Positions 2,612-27,081 of a stretch of 27,459 bases of DNA are shown here, piece after piece. The notes under the pieces are model-generated. The model was not told the origin of the DNA. It saw only the letters and a list, made by a program, of their open reading frames with translations, and ran no database searches. Numbering within the stretch: the first letter of the stretch is position 1; each line of letters begins with the position of its first letter. This DNA comes from a virus. Both the position numbers and the translations under genes were made by a program. The stretch lies in the IMG/VR virus record IMGVR_UViG_3300026518_000050, positions 1 through 27,459 of that record; one strand, given 5' to 3'.

Positions 2612-3781
2612 ATGGGTTTTAAAGATGGTTTAACTAGTTTATTTAATTCTCTAGCAAATAAAAGAAATGCGACTAATGGGAATTATATAACAAGTAGAAG
2701 AATAACTTTTAATGAGTTGAACGATATTTATAAAATAGGGTTAGGGAATAAAATAGTTAGGTTAAAAGCAGGTTATGCCTTAAAGCCAAATAATATTTTA
2801 TTTGATAACGATGAGGACAAGGCTTATTATTTAGCAAGGTTACATAGCAAAGTTAAAGAGGCTTTTTTGTGGGCATTGGTTTTTGGTCGAGGTATTATTG
2901 TAATAAATGACGGTGGAGATTTATCTATGCCGTTAGAAGAAATAGACAAAGAGAGAGTAAAATTTGAAGTGTTTAGCGGTGATATGGTTAGTGTTTTTGA
3001 TTATATTACCAATTTAGCTTCACAACGTTATTTAAAGCCTGTTTATTACAATGTGAGGGGATATAATTTTCATCATACGCGTGTTATAGATTTTACTTAT
3101 GTTAAGCCAAGACAGCAAGATATGCCGATGTATAATTTAGGGGGAATTAGTGAATTTGAATTAATTTACAATCAACTTATAAACGATGGAATTGTAGAAA
3201 GAGCGTCTTCAACTATATTGGAGAAAAACGCGTCTTTATTTTATAAGATTAAAGGATTTAAGCAAGCGTTAGAAGCTAAACAAGAGAACAATATAGTTAA
3301 ATTCTATTCTTATTTAGAAGATAGGCGTAGTATTTATGGAGCTGGTTTATTGGATAGTGAAGATGATGTTATGAATATAACTCAGTCACTTAGTAATTTA
3401 GACGATGTAAATAATATAAGTTTAAGGCGTTTAGCAATGGTTACAGGTATCCCGTTAGCTATGCTAGTTGGTGAGAATGTGCAAGGCTTAAATAGCACGG
3501 GGCAAATAGAAAAAACAGCTTTTAATGAAATGATAGAAATTTTACAAAGTGAATATCTTTTAACTCCGTTGAATCAATTTTTAAGAAAATTAGATTTATC
3601 TCCTGTTATTTTTAAAGAGCAACAAAATGTAAGCCCTAGCGAAAAGATAAATTATGAAAAAATAGCAATAGAAAACGCCACAGCTTTATATGATATGGGA
3701 TTTAATATTGCTAAATATTTAAAAGAAAGAGGCGTAGAAGTTAGTGAGCAAGACGATTTTGAAAATGACTTCCCAATATAA
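2612..3781 (+). CDS. Portal protein, DUF1073 type
   Basis: This is the dodecameric channel at the head vertex through which DNA enters and leaves. The 389-residue sequence has the features of the DUF1073 (HI1409-type) portal family: an N-terminal LKAGYALKPN segment, a central FGRGIIVINDGG strand pair, and the conserved block SIYGAGLL...LSNLDDVNNISLRRLAMVTGIP followed by L-V-G-E-N-V-Q-G-L-N-S-T-G. Position directly after the terminase and before the Mu gpF-like gene supports this. Length is somewhat short for the family. An AAAGGAG box precedes the start. Some databases label this family anti-CBASS Acb1-like, but I see no 2H-phosphoesterase HxT/S pair in its C-terminus. Confidence 0.88.
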   Translation: MGFKDGLTSLFNSLANKRNATNGNYITSRRITFNELNDIYKIGLGNKIVRLKAGYALKPNNILFDNDEDKAYYLARLHSKVKEAFLWALVFGRGIIVINDGGDLSMPLEEIDKERVKFEVFSGDMVSVFDYITNLASQRYLKPVYYNVRGYNFHHTRVIDFTYVKPRQQDMPMYNLGGISEFELIYNQLINDGIVERASSTILEKNASLFYKIKGFKQALEAKQENNIVKFYSYLEDRRSIYGAGLLDSEDDVMNITQSLSNLDDVNNISLRRLAMVTGIPLAMLVGENVQGLNSTGQIEKTAFNEMIEILQSEYLLTPLNQFLRKLDLSPVIFKEQQNVSPSEKINYEKIAIENATALYDMGFNIAKYLKERGVEVSEQDDFENDFPI

Positions 3782-3790
3782 AGGTAAGAT

Positions 3791-4636
3791 ATGGCTAAAA
3801 TAAATATAACAGAAGTAGCACAAAAGCCAAAAAGAAAGAAAAAAGTAATCATTAAGCCGATGAAGACACCTAAATATTTAGAAAATGAATTAAGCCACTT
3901 TTGTAAATTTATAGTGGAACAGATACATAAAAGGTTTGAAAACAAAGTTTTAAAAGAAATGACGAAACCTACAATAAGAAAAAAATATGAAGTAGCGGAC
4001 GCAGTAGGCAATTACGCGGTAGTATTAAAACAATTATCAAGAGAATTTCAAAAAAGTATTGATAATCAGTTTAGCCAAAATAGAATTAAAAAATATATTA
4101 GAAAACTATATTTTAAGTTACATAAAATAAATGATAAGAAATTTTATGAGGCAGTTCAAAGGGGTGTTGGAGTTGATGTTAAGCAAATAATTAAAACGGA
4201 CGGCCTTAATACTTTTGTAAATGCTAAAACACTTGAAACAACGGCATATATAGAAAAACTTAAAAAAGAAGCAATGGGGAATTTAACTGATAATTTTTTA
4301 CGCTTATTATCACAGGGAAGAAGTTTAGAAACTTTATACCAAGAAGTTGCAAATGTTAAAAAAAAGAATAGAAACAAAGCTGAATTAATTGCTAGAAATG
4401 AATTGAAAACATTTAACCAACAATTAAATGATAAAAGAGCTTTAAATTTGGGAATTAAAAAAGCAGTGTGGAATGCAGTTAATGATGAGAGGACAAGAGT
4501 GTGCCATAGAGCAAGAGACGGTAAAGAGTATGACCCGACCGAAGGGCTTTATAGCAGTTGCGATGGTAAAAAACTTCTAGCAGGGCAGGAGATTAATTGC
4601 CGTTGCTGGAATACTTATGTAGTAGAATTTGATTAA
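3791..4636 (+). CDS. Mu gpF-like head morphogenesis protein
   Basis: This minor head protein is needed early in capsid assembly and usually sits near the portal. The C-terminal third carries the Phage_Mu_F pattern: A-R-N-E at 201-204, then the segment W-N-A-V-N-D-E-R-T-R-V-C-H (Cys238, His239), Cys257, and the final E-I-N-C-R-C-W (Cys270, Cys272). The Cys/His set may bind a metal. The N-terminal part is very basic (QKPKRKKK) and largely helical, which fits contact with portal or DNA. The total of 281 residues is within the family range. It lies between portal and protease as in Mu-like and HI1409-type heads. Confidence 0.87.
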   Translation: MAKINITEVAQKPKRKKKVIIKPMKTPKYLENELSHFCKFIVEQIHKRFENKVLKEMTKPTIRKKYEVADAVGNYAVVLKQLSREFQKSIDNQFSQNRIKKYIRKLYFKLHKINDKKFYEAVQRGVGVDVKQIIKTDGLNTFVNAKTLETTAYIEKLKKEAMGNLTDNFLRLLSQGRSLETLYQEVANVKKKNRNKAELIARNELKTFNQQLNDKRALNLGIKKAVWNAVNDERTRVCHRARDGKEYDPTEGLYSSCDGKKLLAGQEINCRCWNTYVVEFD

Positions 4637-17418: not shown

Positions 17419-18135
17419 ATGGGAATATTTACTGATAATTATAAAAAACTTTTAATAATACAATACAGTAATAAGCCAAAAGCACAATCTACAATAGAAA
17501 GTATTTTAAAACAAACAGAGAAAGTTTATGAGTTAGCAAATAGTTTTAATAAAGCACTTGATTTAGATTTTGCGGGGGGAAAACAACTTGATATTTTAGG
17601 AAAAATAGTTGGTTTAAATAGAAAAATACCTTTTGCCGTTCCAAAAAAATATTTTGGTTTCTCTGATTATGATTATAGTTACCCTTTTGGAGAAAAATTT
17701 GAAAATGTGGTTGCATATCCTTTTAGAAACAAATTCGAGCCTCCTTACACAGCATTAGAGTTGAATGATATAAATTACAGATTTTTATTAAGAGCTAAAA
17801 TATCAAAAAATTATGCAAAAGCGACTATGATAGATGATAAAAAATTAAGCATACAAGATATAGCCGGTTATTTATTTAACGGAAAAGCGTTTGTAATAGA
17901 TAATTTTGATATGAGTATGAGTTTATACGCTGATAATACATACGATTTTAACAATATAAGACTTATGATACAATTACAATTATTGCCAAAGCCACAAGCG
18001 GTAAAAATAAGAGAATTAGTTGCTTATGACACAAGGGGAACATTTGGTTTTAAAGATAATCCAAATTCTAAAGGTTTTGGAGATAAAAACGGTGATAAAA
18101 TAGATAGCTATTTTGCAATTAGAGAACATTTATAA
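17419..18135 (+). CDS. Baseplate wedge protein gpI-like (DUF2612)
   Basis: The 238 residues match the DUF2612 family that follows gpJ in many phages and connects the wedge to tail fibres. The N-terminal helix region (YSNKPKAQSTIESILKQT), the motif F-A-G-G-K-Q-L-D-I-L-G-K-I-V-G-L-N-R, and a downstream F-G-F-S-D-Y-D-Y block are visible. Start spacing is four bases from the gpJ stop with no strong ribosome binding site (TATAAAAAAATG), so coupled translation is likely. The C-terminal quarter is probably where the fibre docks. Confidence 0.8.
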   Translation: MGIFTDNYKKLLIIQYSNKPKAQSTIESILKQTEKVYELANSFNKALDLDFAGGKQLDILGKIVGLNRKIPFAVPKKYFGFSDYDYSYPFGEKFENVVAYPFRNKFEPPYTALELNDINYRFLLRAKISKNYAKATMIDDKKLSIQDIAGYLFNGKAFVIDNFDMSMSLYADNTYDFNNIRLMIQLQLLPKPQAVKIRELVAYDTRGTFGFKDNPNSKGFGDKNGDKIDSYFAIREHL

Positions 18136-18145
18136 AGGAGAATGA

Positions 18146-19012
18146 ATGGCAGATTTAAAGAGGTTTAATGGTAATGTTTTACCTTTCGCAACAAATGCAA
18201 CAGGATTAAATAGAACAATTTTTGGAAGCACAACACAAAGTAATGAGATTGATGATAACTTAAATGATAATTTTAAATTAGGTTGGGAAATAGTAAATAC
18301 AAATGAAGCACCAACTAAACAGGATTTTAATGCGGTTAGTTATACAACTTCTTATTTAGTAGGGTATTTATATCAGCAGGGGATTGCGGAATGGAATACA
18401 AATCAAAACTATTATAAAAATAGTTATGCAGTTGGCAGTGATGGGGCGTTATATAAAAGTCAAACAGGTGATACAACAACTCCAAACGCTGGAAATGACC
18501 CTACGACAGACGCAACAAATTGGATAAAAGTAGCAGATTTAAGTGATTTAGAGCTATTAAACAAAATAAAAAATGTAGATGGCTCAGGAAGTGGTCTAGA
18601 TGCCGATAAGTTAGATGGGCTTCAAAGTAATGTTAATGCAGTTGCAAATACTGTACCAGTTAGAGATGCAAATACAGCAATAGCAGGTAAGAATCAATGT
18701 ACTGCTTGGGTTATTTTTGATGGTTCTGATGGTACTATTGAGAAAAGCTTTAACATTAGTAGTGTAATAAAAAATGATGTTGGAGATTATACTATAGATT
18801 TTACTGATTCTATGGCCAATACAAGTTATTGTGTCGGTGGTACTTCAAATGACAATAGAGATGAAGATAATAGTTGTGATAGTACTATTGCAGTAAGAGT
18901 AAGAAATACAGATAATTTTAGAATTATGACTTCTCATAATAGTGGTGGTTCAGATGGTAATAATCCAAGTAATAGTAAAACTACATTTTTAATAGTTTTC
19001 GGAGGTAAATAA
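18146..19012 (+). CDS. Tail fibre protein
   Basis: This 288-residue protein is the probable receptor-binding fibre. The N-terminus (MADLKRFNGNVLPFATNATG) is likely the wedge-docking part. Around residues 92-130 there is a short module with the pattern W-N-x-x-x-x-Y-x-x-x-S-Y-A-V...L-Y-K-S-x-x-G...W-I-K-V, which is the carbohydrate-binding type module common in phage fibres. The C-terminal half is rich in Gly, Ser, Asn and Asp (CVGGTSNDNRDEDNSCDS) and begins with A-W-V-I-F-D-G, typical of fibre tips. The last helix is absent. The stop overlaps the next gene start (TAATG). It is short for a fibre, suggesting a small one. Confidence 0.76.
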   Translation: MADLKRFNGNVLPFATNATGLNRTIFGSTTQSNEIDDNLNDNFKLGWEIVNTNEAPTKQDFNAVSYTTSYLVGYLYQQGIAEWNTNQNYYKNSYAVGSDGALYKSQTGDTTTPNAGNDPTTDATNWIKVADLSDLELLNKIKNVDGSGSGLDADKLDGLQSNVNAVANTVPVRDANTAIAGKNQCTAWVIFDGSDGTIEKSFNISSVIKNDVGDYTIDFTDSMANTSYCVGGTSNDNRDEDNSCDSTIAVRVRNTDNFRIMTSHNSGGSDGNNPSNSKTTFLIVFGGK

Positions 19013-19644
19013 TGAAAGAATTAAAATATTTCTACAAAATAGAAGACAATAAAATTAAGACTGGTTCAGGTTTTAAAATTCCTGATGGATTTATTGAGTA
19101 TGATAAACCTAATCCACCAAAAGAAATTTTAGATTTACAATTTAATAAATTAAAAATATCTAAGAAACAAGAAATTAAAAGCGTATTAAATAATTATTTA
19201 AGCGTGTATCATTTGAATAATGGTATTAATGTAATTAATAATTTGCAAGAACAAAGTAATAATTTAAATAGTCTATTGTTTAGTCAAATGGCTTTAAAAA
19301 GTCCTAAATGGGCTAAATCAACAGATTATAAAGTAAATGATGTGGTGTATGTTAATGATGTTTTATTATTGTGTATAACAGCTGGTAAATCTGATAGTTC
19401 TAATAACCCTACTCCGCCAACTGATTATGGTGTATCCGTCACAGATGGAACAGCAGAGTGGGCTAAATTAGGATTTCTAGTTAAGACAGACAAAGGCAGA
19501 ATATATTTTACACCACAACAGATTATAGAGATGTCTGAAGAAGCTACAGCTATTTTGCACGAAGCACTGACAAAATACGATACTTTAAAAAAAGAAATTG
19601 CAGCTGCAACAACTAAAGAAGACTTGGATAAAATAAAATGGTAA
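19012..19644 (+). CDS. Tail fibre assembly-like protein with an inserted binding-type module
   Basis: Residues 1 to about 93 and 160-210 look like a DUF4376-type tail fibre assembly protein: a short N-terminal domain with I-P-D-G-F-I-E-Y, a long helix, and a C-terminal helix-turn ending E-E-A-T-A-I-L-H-E-A-L-T...T-K-E-D-L-D-K-I-K-W. Between the halves (about 97-156) sits a module W-A-K-S-T-D-Y-K-V-N-D-V-V-Y...C-I-T-A-G-K-S...D-G-T-A-E-W-A-K-L-G, normally found in fibres themselves. Such a module inside a chaperone-like protein is unusual, so the gene may alternatively encode a second fibre component. Its last seven bases overlap the next gene. Confidence 0.66.
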   Translation: MKELKYFYKIEDNKIKTGSGFKIPDGFIEYDKPNPPKEILDLQFNKLKISKKQEIKSVLNNYLSVYHLNNGINVINNLQEQSNNLNSLLFSQMALKSPKWAKSTDYKVNDVVYVNDVLLLCITAGKSDSSNNPTPPTDYGVSVTDGTAEWAKLGFLVKTDKGRIYFTPQQIIEMSEEATAILHEALTKYDTLKKEIAAATTKEDLDKIKW

Positions 19645-20072
19645 GGATAGCATTTTATAAGGGGCTTACGGCACCTCATAGAGATTGGAAAGATTGGGTT
19701 ATATGCAAATGGACACACGGTCAATATAGCCATGTAGAGTTAGTTATAGGAGATACTATGTATAGTAGTTCTCCAAGAGCTGGTAAAGTTAGAGCAAAAC
19801 AACATATTACAGATAATGAAAGTTGGGATTATATTGATATGCCTTTTATAGAAGAAAGAAATATATTGGAATTTTTCAATATGACACAAGGTAGTAAATA
19901 TGACTATATTGGTATATTAGGCTTTGTTATTCCTATTAAGGATAGAACAAATGAATGGTTTTGCTCTGAATGGGTTAGTAACGCTTTAAAGATTAGTGGA
20001 TGTAAATCACTGTGGAAATTAGAGCCAAGTAAAATAAGCCCAAACAAACTATACAAGATTTTAAAAGGGTAG
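19638..20072 (+). CDS. Permuted papain-like (YiiX/YaeF-type) hydrolase
   Basis: The 144 residues resemble permuted papain-fold amidases/peptidases. A histidine in H-G-Q-Y-S-H-V-E-L-V-I-G (His32, with His27 nearby) precedes the cysteine in W-F-C-S-E-W-V-S-N-A-L (Cys109), the reversed order typical of the permuted group. The segment G-S-K-Y-D-Y-I-G before the cysteine is also characteristic. Substrate unknown; cell-wall peptide, lipid or protein amides are all possible. It is encoded between the tail fibre assembly gene and the holin, so a role in lysis or in the virion is plausible. No signal peptide is seen. Confidence 0.68.
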   Translation: MVRIAFYKGLTAPHRDWKDWVICKWTHGQYSHVELVIGDTMYSSSPRAGKVRAKQHITDNESWDYIDMPFIEERNILEFFNMTQGSKYDYIGILGFVIPIKDRTNEWFCSEWVSNALKISGCKSLWKLEPSKISPNKLYKILKG

Positions 20073-21599: not shown

Positions 21600-21664
21600 A
21601 AAAAATAATTTTCTTTTTTCTTTCTTCTGTAAATAATTACAACTTTTCTAAAATTTTCTATAAA
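21600..21664 (+). terminator. A/T-run region, possible end of the late transcript
   Basis: Directly after the lysozyme stop there is an A8 run, a short spacer and then T-rich tracts (to about 21630), which could pair only through A-T pairs. It is a weak candidate terminator between the late block and the early promoter that begins at 21679; no G+C stem is visible. Confidence 0.28.
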
Positions 21665-21666
21665 TA

Positions 21667-21726
21667 TATAAAAAATGCTTGACTTTCTTATAAAAATAAT
21701 GTATAATTATATTAATAAAAAACAAA
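21667..21726 (+). repeat. 60-bp direct repeat, copy 1 (carries promoter P1)
   Basis: Positions 21667-21726 are identical base by base to 22574-22633 (offset 907). The repeat holds the full -35/-10 set and the start of the leader (ending ACAAA). The copies flank the nuclease gene, so the promoter-gene unit looks like a duplicated or inserted cassette. Confidence 0.88.
21679..21707 (+). promoter_or_regulatory. Sigma70-type promoter P1
   Basis: TTGACT (21679-21684) and TATAAT (21702-21707) are separated by 17 bases, a near-perfect consensus. It sits 30 bases upstream of the RecE-like nuclease start and lies inside a 60-bp segment repeated exactly at 22574-22633. Probably an early promoter read by the host RNA polymerase. 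Confidence 0.8.
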
Positions 21727-21737
21727 GGAGTTGAAAG

Positions 21738-22550
21738 ATGACAAACGCAGAGTATCACGCAAATAAGGCTTTAGGTTCTTCTCTTATAAAAGAAGTTCTT
21801 ATAAATGCAAGAAAATTCAAAGCAATGTGGGACGGAGACCTTAAAATAGAAGGTAAAAATTTAGATGTTGGGAGTGCTTTACATAAAATAGTGTTAGAGC
21901 CTGATGAGTTTGACGATGAGTTTGCAGTTGCCCCGCAAGTTAATAAAAGGACAAAAGCAGGAAAAGAAGAATTTGCAAAATTTACCCTTGAAAATGAGGG
22001 TAAAATAATTTTAACGGCGGAGGATTTTGAACTGGTGGAGAGTATGAAAGAAAAATTATTAAAGTTGCCGAATATGAAAAAATGGTTAGAGTCTGGGGTT
22101 GCTGAAAAAAGTTTCTTTTGTAATATTGACGGGGTTGATATTAAATGTCGCCCCGACCTTTTAGTAAAAACAAAAGCAGGTTATATCGTTATAGATTTAA
22201 AAACGATGAGCGGGGAAGCAACCGCAGACAATTTCACAAAAACAAGTGGTAATTTTTTATATCACTTGCAAGATGCAGTTTATAGAGAGGTGTTGAGAAG
22301 AAATGATATTAAAGTTATAGACTTTATATTTGCAGGAGTTAGCAAATTAGATTATAGTGGAGCTGATTATTTTAGGCACGATATAACAAGTCTAGATTTG
22401 GGAAAAGAGCTTATGCAAAAAGCACTCTTTAAGTTTAAATGGTGCTTGAAACACGATGAGTGGAGTGAGGGGAAATTTGATTTTATCAATGGAGGATTTG
22501 AAAAAATTAGCACGATAGTTTTACCAAATTATTGTTGGTATCAATTTTAA
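21738..22550 (+). CDS. RecE-like exonuclease (PDDEXK, DUF3799)
   Basis: This 270-residue protein resembles exodeoxyribonuclease VIII/DUF3799. The conserved core is visible: G-S-A-L-H-K (His49), E54 in L-E-P, C-R-P-D (Asp140), V-I-D-L-K-T (Asp153, Lys155), and a final Q-D-A-V-Y-R (Gln178, Tyr182). It should digest double-stranded DNA ends to expose 3' single strands, which the RecT-like protein encoded two genes later can anneal. The N-terminal A-N-K-A-L-G-S-S-L-I-K segment is family-typical. AAAGGAG precedes the ATG. The gene is flanked by two identical promoter segments. Confidence 0.85.
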   Translation: MTNAEYHANKALGSSLIKEVLINARKFKAMWDGDLKIEGKNLDVGSALHKIVLEPDEFDDEFAVAPQVNKRTKAGKEEFAKFTLENEGKIILTAEDFELVESMKEKLLKLPNMKKWLESGVAEKSFFCNIDGVDIKCRPDLLVKTKAGYIVIDLKTMSGEATADNFTKTSGNFLYHLQDAVYREVLRRNDIKVIDFIFAGVSKLDYSGADYFRHDITSLDLGKELMQKALFKFKWCLKHDEWSEGKFDFINGGFEKISTIVLPNYCWYQF

Positions 22551-22573
22551 TTTTTTCCCTTTTTATATAAATT

Positions 22574-22633
22574 TATAAAAAATGCTTGACTTTCTTATAA
22601 AAATAATGTATAATTATATTAATAAAAAACAAA
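22574..22633 (+). repeat. 60-bp direct repeat, copy 2 (carries promoter P2)
   Basis: Identical to 21667-21726 over 60 bases; after the shared part the two differ (AAGG in this copy). It follows the nuclease stop after a T-rich stretch (22549-22566) that might act as a weak terminator. Confidence 0.88.
22586..22614 (+). promoter_or_regulatory. Sigma70-type promoter P2
   Basis: TTGACT (22586-22591), 17-base spacer, TATAAT (22609-22614). Same sequence as P1. It would drive the unknown 111-aa gene and RecT. Its presence shows that the in-frame ATG at 22582 cannot be the start of that gene. Confidence 0.8.
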
Positions 22634-22644
22634 AAGGAAAGAAA

Positions 22645-22980
22645 ATGACAATATTCAAAGTATTTGAAAAATTATATAAAAAATATAAAAAAAATAAGCC
22701 AAAAGGGGTTGAGCTTACAATAGAAGAATTAGGTATAAAAATATACTCAAAAGAAACTGGGTATATCTTTATTGAAGAGCCGTCAAGTAATAACGACTTT
22801 TTGATAGCTAACTTCTTAGCAAAAACCGAAACTTGCGTCGAATTAATGCAGGGGAAATATGAGCTAGGTAGTGAGTTTGAAAAAGCAATAGATGCCAGAA
22901 TTGATAATTTTCTAAAAGCTTTTGATACATATAAGGAAATAGGGAAAGCAACCCTCATCAAGGAGGTGATAAATGGGTAA
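22645..22980 (+). CDS. Unknown 111-aa protein between the RecE-like nuclease and RecT
   Basis: The start is ATG 22645 with AAAGGAAAG just upstream; an earlier in-frame ATG at 22582 lies upstream of the -35 element and cannot be used from this promoter. The N-terminus is strongly basic and helical (KLYKKYKKNKPK), then comes a strand region (VELTIEELGIKIYSKETGYIFIEE) and a C-terminal helix (FEKAIDARIDNFLKAFDTYKE). No family is recognised. Being placed between a RecE-like and a RecT-like gene, it may assist recombination, but it could equally be an accessory gene. The stop overlaps RecT. Confidence 0.65.
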   Translation: MTIFKVFEKLYKKYKKNKPKGVELTIEELGIKIYSKETGYIFIEEPSSNNDFLIANFLAKTETCVELMQGKYELGSEFEKAIDARIDNFLKAFDTYKEIGKATLIKEVING

Positions 22981-23782
22981 TAATGTAGTATTAAAAAGGA
23001 AAGAAAAAATAGCGAAATATGTTGAAAGTGCGGAAATAAAAAACCGCCTTTTAGCAATGTTCGGGGATGAAAAAAAAGCTGAGAAATTCAAGGCGACATT
23101 AATAAATGTTGCTCTCGATAGCAGCTTGAGTAAATGCAGCGAAATTAGCATAATAAAAAGTGCATTGTTGATAGCAGAATCACAGCTGCCTATTAGTAAG
23201 CAGTTGGGACTTGCATATATAGTGCCTTTTGGTAATGAGGCACAGCCGATTATTAGTTACAAAGGGTATAAGTACCTTTTAAGAAGAGATAGAATTTTAG
23301 TAAAAGCAAGAGAAGTTTATGATGTTGATAATTTTAAGATGGAATTTGATGGATTTGATGATGTTTTTAGCTTAAAAGTTGGAGAGCGAAAAGGTAATGA
23401 AAAATGGATTAGAGAACATTTAAAAGGCGTTTGGATATCAATTAAATACACTGATATTGGAGAGGTTGAAAATTATTTTGTAAGCCGTGAAAAATTAGAG
23501 CAGTTAGCAAGTTTATCAAAAGTTAAAAACTCTAAATATTCACCTTATAACTCAGGATTCTGGCTTGAAATGATGACAGCAAAAGCAGTTGGGTATATTG
23601 CAAGGAAAATCGGAGTTAGCGGGGAAACTTTTGAAAAAGCCGTGAAGATAGAAAATGAATATAGTAAGTTACAGACAGAAGAAAAAATAACGGAGGGTGA
23701 AAAAATTGATATTTTTGATGCTGAGGTTGAAGAGATAAAAGAAGATGCAGAATCAGAGGAAACTAAAAAGGAAAGAAAATGA
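22973..23782 (+). CDS. recT: RecT-family single-strand annealing protein
   Basis: This 269-residue protein matches RecT: the central S-I-I-K-S-A-L-L-I-A-E-S-Q-L-P-I-S-K-Q-L-G-L-A-Y-I-V-P-F-G segment, I-I-S-Y-K-G-Y-K-Y-L-L-R-R, and the C-terminal F-W-L-E-M-M-T-A-K-A-V-G-Y-I-A-R. It anneals single-stranded DNA generated by the RecE-like nuclease. An unusually complete Shine-Dalgarno box (AAGGAGGTGAT) lies about two bases before the ATG, which overlaps the previous gene by eight bases. The last 40 residues are acidic and probably disordered. The stop overlaps the next mini-gene (ATGA). Confidence 0.88.
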   Translation: MGNNVVLKRKEKIAKYVESAEIKNRLLAMFGDEKKAEKFKATLINVALDSSLSKCSEISIIKSALLIAESQLPISKQLGLAYIVPFGNEAQPIISYKGYKYLLRRDRILVKAREVYDVDNFKMEFDGFDDVFSLKVGERKGNEKWIREHLKGVWISIKYTDIGEVENYFVSREKLEQLASLSKVKNSKYSPYNSGFWLEMMTAKAVGYIARKIGVSGETFEKAVKIENEYSKLQTEEKITEGEKIDIFDAEVEEIKEDAESEETKKERK

Positions 23783-23862
23783 GTAATTTAACAAAAAAGT
23801 ATTTTAAAAAACTTGAAGAAGCAATAAGAAGACAAAAAGAAAGGTGGGAAAATGAGAAATAA
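23779..23862 (+). CDS. Mini-gene, 27-aa basic helix
   Basis: The ATG at 23779 overlaps the RecT stop (ATGA) and the frame ends TAA at 23860-23862. The peptide (MSNLTKKYFKKLEEAIRRQK then ERWENEK) looks like one amphipathic, charged helix. Ribosome re-initiation after RecT, with AAAGGAAAG just upstream, supports expression. Too short to match any family; function unknown. Confidence 0.42.
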   Translation: MSNLTKKYFKKLEEAIRRQKERWENEK

Positions 23863-23941
23863 AATATTATTTATTTTTTCTTATCCTTTTTTAGTTATTC
23901 ATACAAATTGGATAAGAATAAAAAACAAGGAGTGGAAATGA
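23852..23941 (+). CDS. Mini-gene, 29-aa hydrophobic peptide
   Basis: An ATG at 23852 with AAGGTGGG about six bases upstream opens a frame of 29 codons ending TGA at 23939-23941. The first 18 residues are hydrophobic (KILFIFSYPFLVI), followed by a polar tail with W and K (NWIRIKNKEWK), so it may be a one-span membrane peptide. Its start overlaps the previous mini-gene and its stop overlaps the next gene (ATGA), making a chain of coupled starts. Function unknown. Confidence 0.4.
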   Translation: MRNKILFIFSYPFLVIHTNWIRIKNKEWK

Positions 23942-24549: not shown

Positions 24550-24609
24550 GCTAAAACAAAAAGGAGCTGAGATGAACTCAGTTGAGTAATGTGAGAGATG
24601 AAAGTTAAA

Positions 24610-24794: not shown

Positions 24795-25682
24795 ATGAAA
24801 ACTACTTTAAAACTACTTAATCAAAGACCTATTGCATATTATCCTATTTATAGACAGGTTACAGGTAGCACGACGGCTGGAATTTTATTATCACAATTAA
24901 TGTATTGGTTTAGCAAAAAGGATAAATTTTATAAAACAGATGAAGATATTAAAAATGAAACACTTTTAACTGAAAAAGAGTTAAAGACAGCAAAGAATAA
25001 AGTTAAAAAATTAAGTTTTATAAAAGTGACAAGAGAGGGGATACCTGCTAAAACTTATTATGAAATTAATTGGGGAGAATATGAAAAAGTATTAAATGAA
25101 TATGAAAAAGCAGAGAAAAAAGAGCCAAACAATATAGGACGAAAGGGACAATCTGGAAAGGACGAAAGGGACAATCTGGAAAGGACGAAAGGGACGAACA
25201 CTGATGTCCGAAAGGGACAAACTATTACTAAGACTACTACTGAGAATACTTCTAAGACTACTACTGAGATTAAAAAAGAAAGAAAGAAAGAAGACGCACC
25301 CACTTCCCTTTTAAAAGATTTAGAGATAACAAAAGCAAATCAAAAGTATATAGACCAAGATATTATCTACCTTCTTAAAACACTAAACGATAAAGGGGAT
25401 TTAATTGAAGACTTTATTAAATACAGAAAAGAGATTAAAAAGCCTATTAAAACAAATAGACCTATAAAAGCATATCTAAGGGAGCTTATAAGAGCAAAAA
25501 AGGCACTAGGAGTAGAAATACACAAAGCGGTTGAGATAATGCAAGAGAACGAATGGCAGACGTTAAAAAAGGAATGGATAGAGAGATATTTTAAAATAGA
25601 TAAGAGCAGAACGGAAAAAAAAGAAGAAAAGCTTATTAATAATGCAAAAAAAGCAATAGATGATTTTGTAAATGATAATTAA
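24795..25682 (+). CDS. Replication initiator (lambda O-like / DnaD-like)
   Basis: The 295-residue protein has an N-terminal winged-helix domain (residues 1-92: YPIYRQVTGSTTAGILLSQL, then ELKTAKNKVKKLSFIKVTRE, ending AKTYYEINW), a hydrophilic linker (about 105-170) rich in K, R, G and T, and a C-terminal helical domain ending L-R-E-L-I-R-A-K-K-A-L...E-N-E-W-Q-T-L-K-K-E-W, typical of phage replisome-organiser proteins. It should bind the origin and recruit the helicase loader encoded next. The linker DNA contains the iteron array, as lambda ori lies within gene O. No known catalytic motif is expected. Identity with a precise family needs profile search. Confidence 0.8.
   Translation: MKTTLKLLNQRPIAYYPIYRQVTGSTTAGILLSQLMYWFSKKDKFYKTDEDIKNETLLTEKELKTAKNKVKKLSFIKVTREGIPAKTYYEINWGEYEKVLNEYEKAEKKEPNNIGRKGQSGKDERDNLERTKGTNTDVRKGQTITKTTTENTSKTTTEIKKERKKEDAPTSLLKDLEITKANQKYIDQDIIYLLKTLNDKGDLIEDFIKYRKEIKKPIKTNRPIKAYLRELIRAKKALGVEIHKAVEIMQENEWQTLKKEWIERYFKIDKSRTEKKEEKLINNAKKAIDDFVNDN
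25136..25220 (+). repeat. Four iterons at exact 23-bp spacing inside the initiator gene
   Basis: The core CGAAAGGGACRA begins at 25140, 25163, 25186 and 25209, always 23 bases apart; the first two full units (25136-25158 and 25159-25181) are identical. Because 23 is not a multiple of three the same DNA is read as GRKGQSG, KDERDNLE, RTKGTN and VRKGQ, so the conservation is at DNA level. This is the form of origin iterons bound by an initiator. Confidence 0.85.
25228..25269 (+). repeat. 18-bp direct repeat pair, 24 bp apart
   Basis: CTAAGACTACTACTGAGA occurs at 25228-25245 and 25252-25269. The 24-base period is in frame and encodes KTTTE twice, so protein-level repetition is also possible here, unlike the iterons just before it. 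Confidence 0.75.
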
Positions 25683-26364: not shown

Positions 26365-26401
26365 TTTACATAACAAAACAAAAAAACAAAAAGGAGCTGA
26401 G

Positions 26402-26548
26402 ATGAAAGAAAAGAAAAAAAATAAAAAAAATAAAAGTAAGAAAAAAGTTGTCTTTGATGAAAGACTTGAAACCCTTGCAAGACAAGAGCGTGAGAATTAT
26501 AGTAGTAGAAGTTGGAATATACAAACAAGTGGCGGATTTTATAATTGA
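26402..26548 (+). CDS. Small basic protein, 48 aa
   Basis: The ATG at 26402 has AAAGGAG seven bases upstream, shortly after the strongest promoter in the window. The N-terminal 15 residues are almost only K and N (KEKKKNKKNKSKKK), followed by V-V-F-D-E-R-L-E-T-L-A-R-Q-E-R-E and a Ser/Gly-rich end (SSRSWNIQTSGGFYN). The basic tail may bind nucleic acid. No known family. It is the first gene of its transcript. TGA stop is at 26546-26548. Confidence 0.6.
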   Translation: MKEKKKNKKNKSKKKVVFDERLETLARQERENYSSRSWNIQTSGGFYN

Positions 26549-26565: not shown

Positions 26566-27081
26566 ATGACAATTGAAGAATTTAAAAGTAATGTAATAAA
26601 ATGGGCTATTGATAAAAGGATAATACCAAACTCAAATTTTGACGCTCAATACATAAAATTAATTGAAGAGCTTGGAGAACTTGCACTTGGAATTAGAAAG
26701 CAAGATGAAAAGGTGATTAAAGACAGCGTTGGAGATGTTGCAGTGGTGTTGGTAATATTAGCAGGGCTTAAAAAAATGAGTGAGCAAGTATTTGTCGGAA
26801 ATAATGAAGATAATGACTTTATGGATAATTTTCAAGAGTTATGTGGAAGTATAGGAATGCTTCCGAGATATACAGAACCTTATAATGAAAATAGGGAAAG
26901 TATGAAATATGTGATAAGCTATTGTTTAACACTATTAAAAAAAGTAGCGGAAAAACAAGGTTATGACTTTATGGAATGTTGTGAATTAGCTTGGAATGAG
27001 ATTAAAGACCGCAAGGGGTATTTGAGAGAAGACGGAATTTTTGTAAAAGAAGAAGATATTAAAAATAAAGGAGAAAATTAA
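26566..27081 (+). CDS. MazG-like nucleoside triphosphate pyrophosphohydrolase
   Basis: Start ATG 26566 has AAAAGGAG just upstream; the in-frame TTG at 26545 lies before that box and is not used. The 171 residues show the all-alpha NTP-PPase core: E34-E35-x-x-E38 (LIEELGELA) and D53-S-V-G-D57 in the next helix, which bind magnesium and the triphosphate. Residues 58-100 hold helices, and the ending W-N-E-I-K-D-R-K-G-Y-L-R-E-D-G is typical of phage MazG-type enzymes. It probably hydrolyses dNTPs or alarmone-type nucleotides, helping phage DNA metabolism; the exact substrate is unknown. Confidence 0.83.
   Translation: MTIEEFKSNVIKWAIDKRIIPNSNFDAQYIKLIEELGELALGIRKQDEKVIKDSVGDVAVVLVILAGLKKMSEQVFVGNNEDNDFMDNFQELCGSIGMLPRYTEPYNENRESMKYVISYCLTLLKKVAEKQGYDFMECCELAWNEIKDRKGYLREDGIFVKEEDIKNKGEN

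Follow-up and report, generated by a model that had tools for sequence, protein, structure and literature searches.

A putative early promoter sequence shared by adjacent recE-like and recT-like operons in a phage contig

Two adjacent recombination operons of a phage probably use one and the same early promoter sequence, a predicted strong sigma70-type promoter whose two copies (P1 and P2) appear to have become identical over 60 bp only recently. P1 would open the operon of a RecE-like nuclease, and P2 the adjoining operon of a small open reading frame (ORF) and recT. The window, by which we mean the whole stretch of DNA analysed, is an IMG/VR virus contig of 27,459 bases with 29.7% GC. On this reading, the phage would be a mosaic that joins independently moving recombination genes, each with its own operon and all with a common promoter sequence.

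Twin promoters and the genes behind them

P1 (21667–21726, plus strand) and P2 (22574–22633, plus strand) agree at 60 of 60 bases, a maximal exact match at an offset of 907. The sequence-only reading that drew attention to this match, with its −35 and −10 elements, was exact: each copy contains TTGACT-17-TATAAT, at 21679–21707 and 22586–22614. With mismatches allowed, the repeat is longer, beginning at 21654 and 22561 (97% over 73 bp for 21654–21726 and 22561–22633 by self-BLAST; 89% in an ungapped comparison of 21654–21744 and 22561–22651), and self-BLAST of the window at an E value of 1e-6 detects no other direct repeat. Chance is rejected as its origin, as the longest exact direct repeat in 120 Markov-simulated windows (40 per order) was at most 20 bases at orders 2 and 3 and at most 22 bases at order 5.

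The hexamers of P1 and P2 match 11 of the 12 consensus positions, and their 17-nt spacer falls within the 16–18 nt of sigma70-type promoters; both sites lie upstream of a gene, as expected of such putative promoters. Only three sites of this quality occur in the window (at 21679, 22586 and 26336), and weak promoter-like sites over the whole region are about as numerous as in shuffled sequence (48 versus a mean of 41). The third site, P3 (26336–26364, plus strand; TTGACA-17-TATAAT), is a strong promoter-like site outside the 60-bp repeat and has counterparts by position in two of the relatives described below, G002 and G471. The 60-base identity ends just 5′ of the ribosome-binding sites, which are unlike (AAAGGAGTTGAAAG-ATG for the nuclease and AAAAAGGAAAGAAA-ATG for the small ORF), so P1 and P2 have the promoter and early leader in common, not the translation signals; the earlier description of the repeat as including the leader thus holds for the early leader only. 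A known RNA element was rejected on the basis of Rfam searches, which gave no match in the window or in the relative L009. Elsewhere in the window, two leaders have 24 identical bases (AAAACAAAAAGGAGCTGAGATGAA, at 24553–24576 and 26383–26406), and the first of these copies starts a stretch of about 220 bases that has no listed ORF and, by eye, repeats AACTTAAAAGT.

The gene between the two promoters (21738–22550, plus strand; 270 amino acids) matches Pfam DUF3799 (2.8e-30), the PHROG family of exonuclease VIII (5.6e-61) and the Escherichia coli RecE domain 3h4r (1e-21), and its earlier label as a RecE-like nuclease was right. The alignment to 3h4r includes the CRPD...DxKT motif (here DLKT). 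Together, these matches show that the protein has the PD-(D/E)XK core typical of RecE nucleases, and it is predicted to act with RecT as a 5′–3′ exonuclease on double-stranded DNA. Behind P2, the recT operon begins with the small ORF (22645–22980, plus strand; 111 amino acids), which matches neither Pfam nor PHROG and has an orthologue in G471 (59%). It is followed by a gene for a RecT-like single-strand annealing protein (22973–23782, plus strand; 269 amino acids) that has a RecT domain (Pfam PF03837, 1.2e-16; PHROG, 1.6e-23; RecT structure 7ub2, 7.9e-9). A strong hairpin, possibly a terminator, lies 3′ of this operon at 23878–23925 (−12.9 kcal/mol for 23850–23930). Further downstream are a replication-initiator O-like gene (24795–25682), with about four head-to-tail 23-bp repeats inside its coding sequence (25119–25223), and, beyond P3, a MazG-like pyrophosphatase gene (26567–27081). 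The 23-bp repeats look like an iteron-type origin within the initiator gene, an arrangement familiar from the O gene of lambda.

The interval from the nuclease gene to P2 has no terminator-like site on the plus strand, and transcripts from P1 would therefore probably run on into recT, making it unlikely that the promoters are ‘separately tunable’ as had been suggested. Annealing proteins are needed in larger amounts than exonucleases, and extra RecT from P1 read-through would fit this need: RecT, required in stoichiometric amounts, would be served by two promoters and the catalytic nuclease by one, both presumably early in infection.

Relatives and the history of the identity

We compared the window with four related contigs. 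Three of them carry the nuclease. In all four nuclease-bearing contigs, the window included, the nuclease operon is preceded by a strong promoter; a promoter opens the recT operon in three of the four RecT-bearing contigs (the window, G002 and G471). In L009 (4.4 kb; nuclease 76%), a single promoter serves both genes, in the order small ORF, nuclease, small ORF and divergent recT, and there is no P2. Between this promoter and the first ORF of the nuclease operon, L009 has untranslated, hairpin-like sequence (2360–2525) without a match in Rfam. G001 (39.7 kb; nuclease 69%; the same contig as L050) comes from a Nautiliaceae metagenome-assembled genome and has two promoters with 98% identity across 95 bases, of which the second precedes a small ORF and the nuclease; an ORF further downstream would, by resemblance, encode an ERF-type annealing protein. 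In G002 (41.6 kb; nuclease 59%, RecT 67%), the first promoter is followed by two ORFs and the nuclease, and the second by several ORFs and recT; over 115 bases the two promoters are 82% alike. In the best recT relative, G471:C182 (30 kb; RecT 81%), a single promoter is followed by two other ORFs and then by the small ORF and recT. Neither half of this contig, which stops about 195 bases past recT, contains the nuclease; another contig of the G471 genome encodes one divergent DUF3799 protein. As G471 belongs to the same family as G004, it is probably from Nautiliaceae, and the relatives suggest that the window phage, too, probably infects a Nautiliaceae bacterium of deep-sea vents. RecT alignment searches (A2 and A4) retrieved the G002 contig only, and no relatives were retrieved with the nuclease as a single-sequence query, with the small ORF or in a distant-DNA search of phages.

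DNA similarity between the recT block and G471 starts where P2 has its 3′ end (22631), and P1 and P2 each match the single G471 promoter. Similarity to G002 forms one block from the 3′ half of the nuclease gene through P2 (22001–22645), and that to L009 covers the nuclease gene and a short stretch of leader (21709–22548). Together, these edges indicate gene exchange around these promoters, with a nuclease–P2 order common to the window and G002. Protein distances cross in the same contigs: the window is 76% identical to L009 in the nuclease and 52% in RecT, and 59% and 71% identical, respectively, to G002. A nuclease clade of the window and G002 is rejected (p-AU 0.023) and the RecT tree is without resolution, which demonstrates reshuffling in this group of phages but does not single out the window as the recombinant.

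Apart from the hexamers, P1 and P2 of the window match at all 46 positions, the G002 pair at a fraction of 0.78 and P1 of the two phages at 0.72; their P2 sequences agree at 51 of 77 positions over the whole segment. Should P1 and P2 predate the split between the window and G002, they were later made alike; otherwise, each was duplicated anew. We favour a two-operon, two-promoter layout that probably predates the 60-bp identity, which would then come from a later event within the lineage, when the promoter was either duplicated again or subjected to gene conversion, perhaps by the RecE/RecT-type proteins of the phage itself or by ordinary recombination. Across the related phages and AT-rich sequences compared, promoters outside the hexamers are more alike within a genome (mean of 0.667 for 13 pairs) than between genomes (mean of 0.547 for 92 pairs; permutation p 0.0008). 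In tree tests on 77 columns, with clades picked after the data had been seen, grouping by position was rejected for P1 of the window and G002 (p-AU 0.013) and for P2 (p-AU 0.031); constraining P1 and P2 of the window together did not improve the promoter tree (p-AU 0.055), in which six of seven inner branches are open. P3 clusters with its positional counterpart in G471 (0.85) and not with the other promoters of its own genome, and homogenisation of promoters is therefore not general.

A bolder version of this history, which we regard as rather unlikely, is that the nuclease and recT promoters evolve in concert, as ancient duplicates made identical again and again by gene conversion through the very RecE/RecT-type proteins that they express. 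If true, it would keep both halves of the recombination machine under one promoter sequence and offer a neat small example of how the recombination system of a phage can shape its own regulation.

Other explanations of the repeat

The sequence-only reading had treated P1 and the nuclease gene (907 bp) as a mobile or duplicated cassette that the RecT-like protein of the phage could delete or amplify through the 60-bp repeats, a proposal that finds partial support but as a whole now seems unlikely. The repeats do exceed the 40–50 bases that phage recombination systems require according to a portion of PMC7516269, and events of this class occur: in the Campylobacter phage PC11 (L168), a 453-bp unit is present as two tandem copies bounded by 45-bp direct repeats (3207–4158), exactly where PC22 and DA10 have a single unit between 45-base repeats (93% and 89% identical, respectively). 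Judging from the sequences, the PC11 duplication is the product expected of recombination between these repeats, and it shows that events at short repeats do happen in a phage that has RecE/RecT-like genes, although its repeats surround gene starts, not promoters. The nuclease is also separable, with a recT operon behind one promoter on the nuclease-free G471 contig, and nuclease genes that have no promoter 3′ of them in L009 and G001. What did not hold up is the cassette as a block. Other genes separate the promoter from the nuclease in L009, G001 and G002, and the nuclease–P2 junction is conserved in G002, which argues against a promoter and nuclease that move as a neat 907-bp unit. No contig was found in which a lone promoter is joined to the small ORF, and the exact 29-bp promoter core occurs in no other viral contig (viral_contigs). 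In G471, two other genes lie between the promoter and the small ORF, unlike the product of a simple deletion, and the contig ends beside recT. The exact deletion product, with the nuclease lost between promoter copies, was absent from all three recT relatives that we inspected (L009, G002 and G471), nor did the relatives reveal a clean empty site or the clean-edged presence or absence that marks a moron-like mobile cassette. Two observations had been named as jointly fatal to the proposal, namely diverging copies kept by all relatives and a lack of nuclease-free forms; G002 keeps both copies in diverged form (82%), but G471 is nuclease-free. Repeat-driven deletion or amplification of the window nuclease may occur; neither was observed.

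It is quite unlikely that P1 and P2 serve as operators for a single phage repressor or activator and owe their likeness to selection on a binding site in place of recombination. Phage-specific spacer sequence is common to the copies within the window phage and likewise within G001, where one promoter has an inverted repeat (ATGTAA-15-TTACAT) across the −10 element, as an operator might. However, the dyads differ among the four promoters examined, so a common inverted-repeat operator is rejected; 60 identical bases exceed what an operator requires, P3 of the same phage is without the spacer sequence, and no regulator was found in the window, which is a fragment.

A metagenomic assembly artefact at the repeat or its join is very improbable: the window is an IMG/VR contig and the join sits where recT-block homology to G471 begins (22631), but the independent contig G002 shows this order too, its diverged copies falling within one aligned block, the complete genomes of DA10, PC11 and PC22 show the same type of layout, and 60 bp is shorter than the larger k-mers of usual assembly.

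Campylobacter phages and known systems

Reuse of a promoter by two neighbouring early operons, as the window appears to show, would be ordinary. In the complete deposited genomes of the Campylobacter phages DA10, PC11 and PC22, look-alike promoters precede the nuclease operon, another operon and recT. As in the window, their RecE-like and RecT-like genes lie in separate early operons, each behind a TTGACA-17-TATWAT site; unlike the window, they have three or four copies that are 76–91% alike over 32–119 bp, as opposed to 60 identical bases, and in DA10 recT is about 3.8 kb downstream of the nuclease. Over the 4.1 kb compared, DA10 and PC22 share 96% identity and thus do not count as independent. 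The occurrence of a like layout in cultured phages makes the proposal testable. The nuclease matches the RecE domain of E. coli and the annealing protein belongs to the RecT family, as in the RecE/RecT pair of the Rac prophage, from which the window differs in its separate operons, twin promoters and small ORF between the genes.

Mobile promoters and promoter propagation (Matus-Garcia 2012; van Passel 2014), as summarised in sections of PMC8049555 and PMC9944727, are a related idea, in which near-identical promoter sequences are reused in one genome. Near-identical promoters before different genes of one genome are what we find in the window (60 bases) and in G001 (95 bp at 98%), but with no sign in the window of self-standing mobility. 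The SAS and ESAS of mycobacteriophage cluster K are likewise repeated regulatory elements before phage genes; an ESAS, as described in part of PMC12699233, consists of two paired 17-nt inverted repeats close to a 13-nt motif, and no such inverted-repeat pairs were seen in the window. The word ‘promoter’ does not occur in the accessible portion of the DA10 paper (PMC7291426), and among the titles and abstract openings covered we recognised no report of such an arrangement in phages of vent Campylobacterota.

Promoter repeats were found at 5 of 61 loci in a first set, from which L010, L050, L005 and L085 had been dropped as duplicates and in which some rows are pieces of one contig. By the same test, none was found in 20 more distant Campylobacterota prophages or in 20 host segments, and the 20 prophages indicate that the pattern is limited to some phages. 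Strong sites are commoner in the phage contigs (11 in 138,985 bases, or 7.9 per 100 kb, counted over pieces of the window, G001, G002 and G471:C182) than in the 20 host segments (9 in 398,020 bases, or 2.3 per 100 kb); the 20 prophage segments have 7.8 per 100 kb. Two further repeats came to light on other contigs. L082 has a perfect 117-bp direct repeat (18098–18214 and 19617–19733), with the second copy at the end of the G001 contig, which may be a mark of assembly or circularisation. An unrelated phage contig, L019, carries a promoter-bearing 117-bp repeat (412–528 and 2600–2715) that is 97% identical.
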